From positions 99,910 through 163,909 of the forward strand of contig JAAXZN010000048.1 in NCBI GenBank assembly GCA_012719855.1: 64,000 bases of DNA, written 5' to 3'. The notes beneath the pieces are model-generated. The model saw nothing but the letters and a program-made list of their open reading frames with translations, did not search any database and was not told the origin of the DNA. Every line of letters begins with the position of its first letter. Position 1 is the stretch's first letter. Positions 10,536 through 15,217 of the stretch are shown in pieces. This stretch comes from Serratia liquefaciens (GTDB lineage Bacteria; Pseudomonadota; Gammaproteobacteria; Enterobacterales; Enterobacteriaceae). Position numbers and translations under genes: made by a program.

Positions 10536-10799
10536 TTAAAGTAGATTGAATTTCTCTAGGGTCGCTTTGACTTCTTTTCTCAATCCAGACTCATCCAGTT
10601 CATAATCAGCGCGATCTGAATCTGGATTATAAATCTCAGCCACCATAAATAGTTCCTCTCCACAGTTCAAAACATTCTTGTCCTGATCAATTCCATATAA
10701 TTTACGTCTTTCAATACATATTTCCTCAGAGAATTTAAGTGCATTAACTTTTGAGTTCAAAAAATCCCTGGCTAATTCAATTATCGCCATTTTGTTCAT
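10536..10799 (-). CDS. Colicin D-type immunity protein (second copy)
   Basis: An 87-residue acidic protein that closely follows the remembered pattern of colicin D immunity protein ImmD: MNKMAIIELARDFL, then EICIERRKLYGI, NVLNCGEELFMVAE, and DSDRADYELDESGL near the end. ImmD blocks the tRNase domain by mimicking the tRNA anticodon loop. The start overlaps the stop of the truncated toxin frame upstream (TGATG). It differs in many positions from the other immunity gene at 11540. The divergence parallels that of the last 50 residues of the two toxin copies, so each immunity protein is probably matched to its own toxin. It may protect against related bacteriocins even if its toxin copy is silent. 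Confidence 0.85.
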   Translation of the reverse strand: MNKMAIIELARDFLNSKVNALKFSEEICIERRKLYGIDQDKNVLNCGEELFMVAEIYNPDSDRADYELDESGLRKEVKATLEKFNLL

Positions 10800-11476
10800 C
10801 AGTCACCTGTCTCTAAATAAATTAGACCATTATCCGCATCGGGGTTTATTTTCCATCCGGAGAGAAAATCGCCATTGGCTTTGATGATTACAACCCTCAT
10901 ATTTTTGGGGTTGAAGTAAACTTTAGATTCCTTTTTCCGTCGATAAGTTCCTTTTTTCACAGTATTTTTGTCCTTCAAGTGTGCTTCAATTGCGTCGCGA
11001 TATTGAGTCAACGTTACTCTATTTTTTTTCGTGTCGGCAATACCAAAATCACTAGCATGCTTAAATTTCTTGTCCAATTGTTTACGCGTAAAACGCCCAG
11101 AGTCAAGTGGATCATTGACCATTACATAGAGAGCTTCAACGCCTGTTTCAGTCGCATCCGGCTGCCACAAGATAAAATCCTGCAAGTCCTGGACGACATC
11201 AGCAGGGAAGGTCGTAACAACAATGCTGTCTGCCTGCCTGACATTGGTGCCGGTATGCACCGGCGTCTTGGGGACCGATGAACCATTGCCTGTGTGTGGC
11301 GGTGCCGCAGGGCCAGTCGGTACCGGATTGATCAGTATGGTCTGGGCAGGTATGCCGCCCATTGCTGGCAGCGTGATTTTATCCAGCCCGGTTGCCTCAT
11401 CACGAGTTATCTCTTCAGAGCAGAGGGGTAAAAATAGGATAAGTAAGTAGGGTAAAAATATTTTATTAATGAACAA
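10799..11476 (-). pseudogene. Truncated orphan colicin D-type toxin cassette
   Basis: This open frame repeats only the C-terminal part of the bacteriocin encoded at 11803-13893. From RDEATGLDKITLPAMGG onward it carries the end of the S-type pyocin translocation domain and a full tRNase domain (DLQDFILWQPDATETGVEAL, KKFKHASDFGIADTKKN, KKGTYRR). The final 50 residues differ from the main toxin (KKESKVYFNPKNMRVV versus NASSTVYFNPKSMNVV). Before the homology the frame reads only about 25 hydrophobic residues, starting with a TTG that lies inside a terminator stem. No receptor-binding or entry part is present. I read it as a silent spare C-terminal cassette with its own immunity gene, not a secreted protein. 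A start within the AT-rich leader cannot be excluded. Confidence 0.75.
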
Positions 11477-11509
11477 AGCCCAACAAAGTTTCGTTTGTTG
11501 GGCTTTGTT
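11472..11509. terminator. Strong terminator after the bacteriocin immunity gene
   Basis: A perfect 16-base stem, AACAAAGCCCAACAAA and its complement, with a 6-base loop (11488-11493). It lies about 30 bases beyond the immunity gene stop and marks the end of the bacteriocin operon on the minus strand. The downstream orphan cassette starts right at its foot, so read-through into that cassette should be low. Confidence 0.8.
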
Positions 11510-11539
11510 TAATACATAAACATAAGGCCATTCGATAGA

Positions 11540-11806
11540 TTAAAGAAGATTGAATTTCTCCAGGGTCGCTTTGACTTCTTTCTTTAATTCTGATTCATCC
11601 AATTCATAACTGTCACGGTCCGAATCAGGGTTAAAACAATCTGCCAAAATAAACAGATCACCACCACACATATCTATAGATTTATTCGGTTCTTCTATGC
11701 CATATAGCTCACGTCTTGAAGTCACTATTTCTTCTGCGAAAGTTTCGGCGCTGATTTTATTTTCTATAAATTTCTTACCAATTTCTACTAGTTTAATTCT
11801 ACTCAT
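11540..11806 (-). CDS. Colicin D-type immunity protein of the bacteriocin
   Basis: An 88-residue acidic protein of the ColD immunity family: MSRIKLVEIGKKFI, then EEIVTSRRELYGIEEP, GGDLFILADCFNPDSDRDSYELDESELKKEVKATLEKFNLL. Its last third nearly equals that of the second copy at 10536, while the first two thirds differ. The ATG at 11806 overlaps the toxin's stop (ATGA), so translation is coupled and immunity is made with every toxin. An in-frame extension to 11863 would lie within the toxin gene and is rejected. The terminator at 11472-11509 follows. Confidence 0.88.
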   Translation of the reverse strand: MSRIKLVEIGKKFIENKISAETFAEEIVTSRRELYGIEEPNKSIDMCGGDLFILADCFNPDSDRDSYELDESELKKEVKATLEKFNLL

Positions 11807-13893: not shown

Positions 13894-13933
13894 GTTATAT
13901 ACTCCTGAATGTCCTTTTACGAGCAATGGGCTA

Positions 13934-15067
13934 TCAGCTGTGTTTACCGGAAATAGCCTTTTCCAGCACCGTCAACCGAGTTTCCAGTGCACGTCTGGCC
14001 TCACGTTCTTCCTTTAACGCTTCGACCAGAAGGGCGACCACGCCATTGATATTAATTCCACGGGCATCTTTCAAAACGCTGCCGTCATTTAATTTCAATT
14101 CGGTGGTGGTGACTGATTGAGGTAATACGCTTTCCACTTCCTGGGCTATTACTCCGGCTTCCGGGACGCCCTGTTTCAGGTAGGTATAACCGCTTATTTT
14201 TCCCAGCTTCTCCAGCGCACCGTCAATTTTCTCGATATCGGTTTTCATACGGGCATCGGAGCTGCTGTGCCAGGCACCGTTTGCGTAGGCGTTGCCGTTA
14301 TTGCGGAATTCGTACCAGCCGTTCCCGCCTCCATTGCCAACATGAACGCCCATAAAATGATGTTGACCGATTCGTTCATAGTGATAGAGGTTGGTAAAAA
14401 GGTCGCCAGCTCCCTGTAAATGCAGCCCGTTAGTCACCCGCGTTGCATCACTTTCATTCCTGTTACCACCTGCCCAGAACCATCCGTCGGGATTGCGCTT
14501 GGTCAGTTGTCCCGCTGACAGCTCAGCGTTGGCTCTGACCTGAAGTTCATTCCAGTTTCCCTGCCAGTCGCGGTAAGAAATTAACCCAAAATTATCCTTG
14601 CCAGCGATAACCCGAGTTCCCATCACCATGGTCGTAGTTACGTTACCGCTCGTGAAATCGCTATGCACAGGCGCAGAATTATAGATTTGTCCGTTGATAA
14701 GAGGTGCTGGACCGCTGGTCACGGCACTGATACCTGCATTGTGCGACACCATTGCGCCACCTGAAATATCAACGCCGTTACTCAGAGACACCCTGCCGGT
14801 AGAAAGGCTAAAAGCAAAGGGGCGTAATGTATTCCACTGTCCGTCTTGCGCCTGACCGGCCGGTGTGGTCAGAGCATAAAAGGCTTGGCCGTCATTACGA
14901 AAAAGTACGCCGGTATTGCCGTTTGCCAGGCGAAAACCGTTTGCTGCCTTAGTTACAATCTCACCGTCACTGATGATGCGTTTACGCAGTGTGGTCAGGG
15001 ATTTCAGCTCTGTCACATCGTCATTAACGCCGTTAGTCACCTGAGCATTTTTCTTTTCTTCAGCCAT
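13934..15067 (-). CDS. Tail-fibre-like protein with C-terminal S74 autoprotease chaperone
   Basis: A 377-residue protein. Its C-terminal 110 residues are a peptidase_S74 intramolecular chaperone: SSDARMKTDIEKIDGALEKL, GYTYLKQGVPEAGVIAQEVESVLP, INGVVALLVEALKE and a final coiled coil. In phage tail spikes and fibres this domain trimerises the shaft and then cuts itself off before the SDAR serine (about residue 268). The upstream part is Gly/Asn-rich with beta-repeat character, like fibre shafts and tips. No capsid, sheath, baseplate or lysis gene is near, so this is not an obvious prophage. It is followed 40 bases later by the bacteriocin gene and preceded by a LexA box. Starts at 15067 (AGGAAG) and 15088 (AGGA) both have good sites; I prefer 15067. 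Confidence 0.82.
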   Translation of the reverse strand: MAEEKKNAQVTNGVNDDVTELKSLTTLRKRIISDGEIVTKAANGFRLANGNTGVLFRNDGQAFYALTTPAGQAQDGQWNTLRPFAFSLSTGRVSLSNGVDISGGAMVSHNAGISAVTSGPAPLINGQIYNSAPVHSDFTSGNVTTTMVMGTRVIAGKDNFGLISYRDWQGNWNELQVRANAELSAGQLTKRNPDGWFWAGGNRNESDATRVTNGLHLQGAGDLFTNLYHYERIGQHHFMGVHVGNGGGNGWYEFRNNGNAYANGAWHSSSDARMKTDIEKIDGALEKLGKISGYTYLKQGVPEAGVIAQEVESVLPQSVTTTELKLNDGSVLKDARGININGVVALLVEALKEEREARRALETRLTVLEKAISGKHS

Positions 15068-15197
15068 GATTATCTTCCTTTTCGACATTCTGTTTCCTGA
15101 TGGTTAACAGCGTCCGGTATCCTCCGTTGCTCCTGACTGGCAGGTCTGGGGAGGTACACATTCCGTGTGCTGAAAAACCGCTAAAACACACAGCGAT

Positions 15198-15217
15198 AAC
15201 TGTATGTATGAACAGTA
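15198..15217 (-). promoter_or_regulatory. LexA (SOS) box of the bacteriocin locus
   Basis: AACTGTATGTATGAACAGTA fits the LexA consensus CTGT-N8-ACAG with TA-rich centre and flanks. It lies about 130 bases before the S74 gene and nothing else is transcribed from it leftward. DNA-damage induction of the fibre and bacteriocin genes is therefore likely, as for colicins and S-pyocins. I found only one box; many colicin promoters have two. Confidence 0.85.

Follow-up and report, generated by a model that had tools for sequence, protein, structure and literature searches.

The locus analysed here lies on the minus strand of a 64,000-nucleotide stretch of Serratia liquefaciens DNA (contig JAAXZN010000048.1, positions 99,910 to 163,909; hereafter the window). 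Read from position 15217 down to 10536, it consists of a LexA box, a gene for a fibre-type protein with a phage peptidase_S74 chaperone (S74 protein), a bacteriocin toxin gene, its immunity gene, a hairpin, an orphan toxin end and a second immunity gene. It belongs to the klebicin C/D type of bacteriocin operon, which is already known, and is a chromosomal representative from Serratia. A first-pass annotation made from the sequence had described a LexA box, the S74 gene, a 40-base gap and a colicin D-type S-pyocin with its immunity gene, and this order and the overlap of toxin and immunity gene hold: exactly 40 bases (13894-13933) separate the S74 gene from the toxin ATG (13893), which is preceded by AGGAGT. 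The same span also contains an N-terminally truncated toxin end with an immunity gene (10536-11476), absent from the text of that annotation.

To place the S74 gene in a wider context 54 loci were compared, all picked as near-full-length S74 matches. Apart from the window they come from a genome scan (19 loci, 18 of them full length; the fragment L029 was dropped), a scan of viral contigs (19 loci), plasmid records (the five out of nine covering at least 80% of the S74 protein; the partial matches H10-H13 were left unused) and fetched regions (11 out of 12, the twelfth being another S74 gene). One locus with an interrupted S74 gene (L045/L103) was dropped, and the remaining 53 encode 45 different S74 proteins, window included. 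In all 43 distinct loci with enough sequence, again including the window, the S74 gene stands directly 5' of a Pyocin_S toxin gene; L023 and L085 reach a contig end and fall outside this count. In 41 of the 45 an uninterrupted Pyocin_S toxin gene follows, and in two (L003, L027) an interrupted one. The spacing to the first possible toxin start ranges, in the uninterrupted cases, from a 4-base overlap (13 of the 54 loci) up to 196 bases. What had been proposed from one sequence as a joint unit of S74 gene and bacteriocin is therefore borne out in other genomes as one conserved cassette.

The S74 gene is found in 15 of 30 genomes of the genus, and the main toxins beside it reach Pyocin_S scores of at least 120.5 bits, while those of the others are 107.5 bits at most. 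An order-wide sample gave a match at an E-value of 1e-30 or better in only two of 394 genomes, one being the window's own, and no near match to the 4.7-kb locus was found in the E. coli genomes. In a midpoint-rooted Pyocin_S tree of 41 S74-linked and seven other toxins (ten other loci were tried; L064, L070 and L075 were dropped as their domain is short or missing) the linked toxins do not strictly form one clade, because the Rouxiella toxin L026 groups with the S74-free ones and the plasmid toxin L110 falls inside the linked ones. L110, from a Klebsiella michiganensis plasmid, has only an 80-residue S74 remnant (L110:2948-3187) upstream of its S-pyocin toxin, and a K. oxytoca plasmid shows the same short S74 match.

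The S74 protein can start at an in-frame ATG at 15088, which gives 384 residues, or at the ATG at 15067, which is conserved in relatives and gives 377. It matches the Pfam families Gp34_trimer (4.7e-14) and Peptidase_S74 (1.4e-13), and its best PHROG matches are long tail fibre families. The Ser-Asp-x3-Lys motif (Ser270-Asp271-x3-Lys275), whose residues we take to form the S74 self-cleavage site, is present in all 45 distinct proteins, which are on average 72% identical and in which shaft and chaperone are conserved. From its sequence the protein is likely of the self-cleaving S74 fibre type and would form trimers. A second, distant S74 domain gene was seen near a contig end in the genome of L002 (L106, G000:C63:177975-178154).

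Residues 195-262, just before the cleavage site Ser270-Asp271, are variable and fall into 10 single-linkage clusters at 70%; this segment would form the tip of the fibre. L003 and L025 are 94% identical in shaft and S74 domain and 30% in the tip, L019 and L027 95% and 41%, and the reverse case is given by L021 and L025, with 96% identity in the tip and 82% in shaft and S74 domain. Over all 990 pairs, the tip is by more than 0.25 less alike than the shaft in 297 and by more than 0.10 more alike in 26. The uncorrected ratios of nonsynonymous to synonymous differences (pN/pS) are 0.195 for the shaft, 0.285 for the middle, 0.322 for the tip, 0.166 for the S74 domain and 0.406 for the C-terminal coil, with pS at 0.66-0.78 and thus near saturation; judged by these ratios, all segments of the protein are under purifying selection. 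In a comparison of distances among the 41 loci with a mapped toxin (2000 permutations), tip distance follows neither the N-terminal class of the toxin (r 0.027; 669 permutations as high) nor its killing-end class (r -0.061; 1887), while shaft distance and Pyocin_S distance go together (r 0.53; 0 of 2000).

The toxin is composed of a Gly/Asn-rich N-terminus, an (EARRAEEARR)n coil, a Pyocin_S domain (1.7e-35) and a colicin D-type end (Colicin_D, 3e-13), and matches the solved colicin D structure (5znm) with 391 bits over its last 382 residues. It thus combines a Colicin_D domain with a Colicin_immun partner gene, and its C-terminal killing domain is predicted from sequence to be a colicin D-type tRNase. 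The tandem repeat which encodes the coil (window 12930-13170) differs between the window and G400, a genome of the same species with a locus at the same site.

Downstream of the first immunity gene, the orphan toxin end comprises a partial Pyocin_S and a colicin D domain without the N-terminus. Its TTG start falls within the hairpin at 11472-11509, which was not flagged by a consensus scan, and probably there is no expression of the cassette from its own start. Main end and orphan cassette (window 11540-12411 and 10536-11404) are 80.7% identical over 880 columns. The cassette could serve as a stock, with recombination at the Pyocin_S repeat swapping the toxin end. Among 40 distinct loci whose sequence extends 2 kb or more downstream, five have such stubs behind them.

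The comparison with G400 appears to catch such an exchange between main gene and cassette array within one species. In windows of 50 columns the two toxins show 84-100% likeness as far as column 575, with the exception of the coil repeat, where it drops to 62%, whereas their killing ends are 16-20% alike, that of G400 having no Pfam match; the S74 tips share 52% identity. Behind its main toxin G400 has five further Pyocin_S-stub cassettes, including Col-Pyo_DNase and colicin D types. Window positions 6000-11998 are 97.65% identical to G400 over 5,999 nt, and in G400 the matching stretch starts within a downstream cassette, interrupted there, which corresponds to the active end of the window. 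Of the informative sites in 12145-12414, ten agree with the main gene of G400 (three of them past the edge of the shared repeat) and two with the cassette; from 12121 on, agreement is with the cassette at every site except five, which beyond about 12095 is expected because the main toxin ends of the two genomes are unrelated. A single recombination between Pyocin_S repeats, which would have dropped about 4.2 kb in the direction that we infer from the sequences, explains this pattern.

Table 1. Features of the bacteriocin locus, in window coordinates.
Feature	Position	Strand	Basis or remark
LexA box TACTGTTCATACATACAGTT	15198..15217	-	perfect CTGT-N8-ACAG core
S74 fibre-type protein (Kcp/Kdp homologue)	13934..15067	-	Pfam, PHROG and PDB matches; 377 aa, start conserved in relatives
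Exchangeable predicted tip segment of S74 protein	14282..14485	-	residues 195-262 of the 377-aa form
S74 chaperone region and C-terminal coil	13937..14260	-	Ser270-Asp271-x3-Lys275 cleavage motif
Toxin (bacteriocin activity gene), 696 aa	11803..13893	-	Pfam domains, colicin D structure match
Pyocin_S domain of toxin	12127..12549	-	Pfam; partly duplicated in downstream cassette
Putative recombination breakpoint against G400 (same species)	12121..12145	-	informative-site comparison
Immunity gene, 88 aa, begins on toxin stop	11540..11806	-	Colicin_immun 1.3e-14, scanned in a form three residues longer
Terminator-like 16-bp hairpin between first immunity gene and orphan cassette	11472..11509	-	-23.2 kcal/mol, z -5.3
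Orphan toxin end, TTG start	10799..11476	-	Pyocin_S 4.1e-20, Colicin_D 5e-17
Second immunity gene, 87 aa	10536..10799	-	Colicin_immun 1.1e-10

The locus is flanked by treB and treC on one side and by treR and a Mg P-type ATPase gene on the other, and a gene for an Exc2-family lipoprotein also adjoins it. The earlier statement that no other phage structural gene is near is upheld for these five scanned genes, none of which is a phage structural or tail gene, and an Rfam scan of window 9700-16400 gave no match. In the 26 of the 30 genus genomes in which treR and treB were both found, the gap between them measures 4.5-9.8 kb in eight, all with the S74 gene inside, and 784 bp or less in 17. In G410 (C3:352065-354019) a gap of 1.95 kb holds a Pyocin_S remnant and no S74 match; this is probably a decayed copy of the bacteriocin locus. 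Because of these gap sizes the locus is best read as an insertion between treR and treB. The Exc2-family gene (window 9945-10445), of a family named after a plasmid entry-exclusion protein, is also present in the tre-site loci L011, L012, L013, L015, L016, L095 and L105, with additional partial pieces in L016.

SOS control would be exerted through the LexA box, which is present here and conserved across relatives. Within 300 nt upstream a perfect core is found in 25 of the 45 distinct loci and a core with at most one mismatch in 43, window included, as compared to 30 and 198 out of 1800 windows drawn at random from these loci; one-mismatch boxes are singly inconclusive, and that of L015 looks unlike the others. 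The two loci in which no such box was found under these settings are L024 and L028. L024 (2934-9567) has, directly upstream of the S74-toxin cassette, genes for a CI-like repressor and an N-like antiterminator as well as for two holins and an endolysin, and L028 has the same layout of open reading frames and a holin match. The lack of a LexA box together with the CI-like repressor upstream suggests repressor control, and these loci may each represent a reduced prophage that serves bacteriocin release.

A related position is seen in the 19 predicted viral contigs, which hold only 15 distinct S74 proteins and whose prophage status is itself a prediction. The S74 gene is accompanied by a toxin in 17 of them (L094 and L085 are cut), O/P-like replication genes lie upstream in 15, a Q-like antiterminator lies downstream of the toxin in 16, and both are found in 14; L079 shows an endolysin only. 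The cassette can therefore be regarded as a passenger placed before the late and lysis genes, and this position suggests an exit route for some of these bacteriocins. We also considered the S74 gene as the leftover tail fibre of a deleted prophage, a possibility which the first-pass annotation had named as one that would speak against it, and rejected it: the relatives on predicted prophages carry the cassette complete with its toxin, between replication and Q/lysis genes and away from tail genes, and identity to the S74 protein remains under 60% in every one of the 1250 phage records that match it.

Taken together, the S74, toxin and immunity genes behind one LexA box would be expressed jointly in the SOS response. 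The S74 protein would cleave itself into a soluble trimeric fibre, which would leave the cell along with the toxin and bind to cell surfaces via a tip that can be exchanged, so that a further recognition step would join that of the toxin itself. Since the predicted tip and the killing end of the toxin vary independently, the fibre probably contributes another means of cell recognition that can change separately. A conserved shaft with tips that vary without relation to the N-terminal class of the toxin fits a free adhesin of this kind, and the suggestion that the S74 protein might itself be a binding factor gains from the exchangeable tip. That the operon works in this way, with a self-cleaved, released fibre adding binding specificity, is our preferred reading, which we hold tentatively and put at somewhat short of an even chance; release of the fibre, a ligand for its tip and a benefit of binding to killing are all presumed in it. 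A wider version, in which phage receptor-binding modules have been co-opted to guide a diffusible toxin, is more doubtful: here the swappable tip of the free fibre would pick the cells that are gripped, and the toxin would contribute, besides a receptor part of its own, a replaceable killing end supplied by the cassette stock.

Several observations weigh against the preferred reading. According to the accessible part of one study (PMC8324772), Klebsiella and E. coli were both killed by a KlebC-E9 hybrid that had been produced in the absence of S74 protein and purified, and the authors write there that import needs no information beyond that contained in the KlebC domains, so that the fibre is at most accessory and not required for import in that case. 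The tip is weakly correlated with shaft (r 0.24) and Pyocin_S (r 0.26), both with 0 of 2000 permutations, and is therefore not free of lineage, and the N-terminal classes of the toxins come from single linkage and all share coiled-coil repeats. The structure model of the S74 protein is poor overall (mean predicted local distance difference test, pLDDT, 54.8); the tip is its best-predicted stretch (63-85 in 10-residue blocks), and the model is too poor for anything beyond a fold likeness to T4 gp34 and the Mu fibre. Compared with phages, the window's tip found weak matches only (nine of 50,697 records at an E-value of 0.01 or below, the best 3e-3) and that of L025 found none among the phage records. 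Finally, partial copies exist: in the listed plasmid records H10-H13 the match covers no more than 21-41% of the S74 protein, and the S74 gene of L103 is interrupted. L103 is a second S74 locus in G395, and its toxin and immunity gene are uninterrupted.

The main rival explanation is that the released fibre serves the kin of the producer, masking the receptor of a phage or bacteriocin on sister cells and so blocking adsorption. The lack of relation between tip and toxin N-terminal class, the sufficiency of the klebicin C toxin part alone (PMC8324772, same part) and the frequent position of the cassette on predicted prophages agree with such a decoy, which nevertheless leaves unexplained why the S74 gene directly precedes the toxin gene in 43 of 43 loci; we consider it unlikely. 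That gene order, with the toxin as the next gene in the same direction, and the conserved N-terminus and chaperone would suit a second idea, in which the S74 protein aids folding, stability or release of the toxin inside the producer. The colicin lysis gene (PF02402) was found in none of the 30 Serratia genomes, which would leave room for a role in release, though the search is uninformative as no control genome matched either. Variable tips are hard to account for in this way, the klebicin C hybrid could be purified and kills without S74 protein (PMC8324772, same part), and the S74 gene is kept in prophages beside holin and endolysin genes, which also makes the help in release considered in the first-pass annotation less likely; as a whole we regard this explanation as quite unlikely.

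Improbable, in our opinion, is a third one, by which the S74 gene is a hitchhiker or recombination anchor and its protein does nothing itself. Variable segments between conserved ones would lend themselves to exchange, and partial S74 copies do occur beside toxins on plasmids, but the pN/pS ratios of 0.17-0.32 (0.41 in the C-terminal coil), the cleavage motif in 45 of 45 proteins and the finding of a single interrupted copy among 54 loci, even if these were chosen as near-full-length matches, argue for a functional protein. Very improbable is that the fibre serves, in trans, a phage tail or tailocin whose genes lie in another part of the genome. The fibre family and the conserved N-terminus would agree with this, but the phage matches stay below 60% identity in all 1250 records and no tail genes are annotated or found adjoining the S74 gene on the five plasmids or in the window.

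The locus can be set beside several known systems. With T4 gp34/gp37, the Mu fibre and other S74 phage fibres the protein has in common the Gp34-like shaft domain and the S74 chaperone, but the matches to these long fibres begin in mid-fibre or at their end, and the Serratia gene is not adjoined by phage tail genes. With colicin D the toxin shares Pyocin_S, the tRNase end and the immunity family; the match begins at residue 323 of the toxin, and the N-terminus differs. For a colicin D-like toxin on a S. marcescens plasmid (L108), the 9.1-kb locus around it gave no S74 match. In contact-dependent inhibition (CDI) and Rhs systems, arrays of orphan toxin ends are known, in which truncated ends with immunity genes share a repeat with the main gene. 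The downstream cassette resembles these arrays but here stands on a colicin-like bacteriocin gene.

Closest are klebicins C and D. Contrary to what the first-pass annotation had implied, the arrangement of an S74 gene before a bacteriocin is not new, for the accessible text of PMC10269471, citing Chavan 2005, describes the klebicin C and D clusters as phage-associated (kcp/kdp), activity and immunity genes. By such descriptions and by a plasmid relative, rather than by the original records, the order in klebicin C/D (kcp/kdp, kca/kda, kci/kdi) is that found here. In this plasmid relative a gene annotated as klebicin C phage associated protein, whose product shows 73% identity to the S74 protein across 90% of the latter, is followed by genes annotated as pyocin and colicin-D. 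For tip exchange, the O/P-Q position or cassette exchange in this family we found no description in the open-licence literature. The same build, likened by its published description, is seen in S. marcescens WW4 (SMWW4_v1c20330-20390), where, in the part of PMC3717176 available, a klebicin C phage-associated homologue is followed by toxin, immunity and further S-pyocin/immunity genes, and an insertion before one downstream gene weakened the inhibition of P. aeruginosa; its toxins are DNase-type by that paper's annotation, as opposed to the colicin D type here. Unlike klebicin C/D, the S. liquefaciens locus is chromosomal, lies between treR and treB and has an extra cassette of orphan toxin end and immunity gene. 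The klebicin phage-associated gene has been noted since 2005, with a role inferred, as far as the accessible text of PMC10269471 goes, solely from similarity to fibre ends, and for this role the tip pattern now offers a concrete and testable hypothesis.

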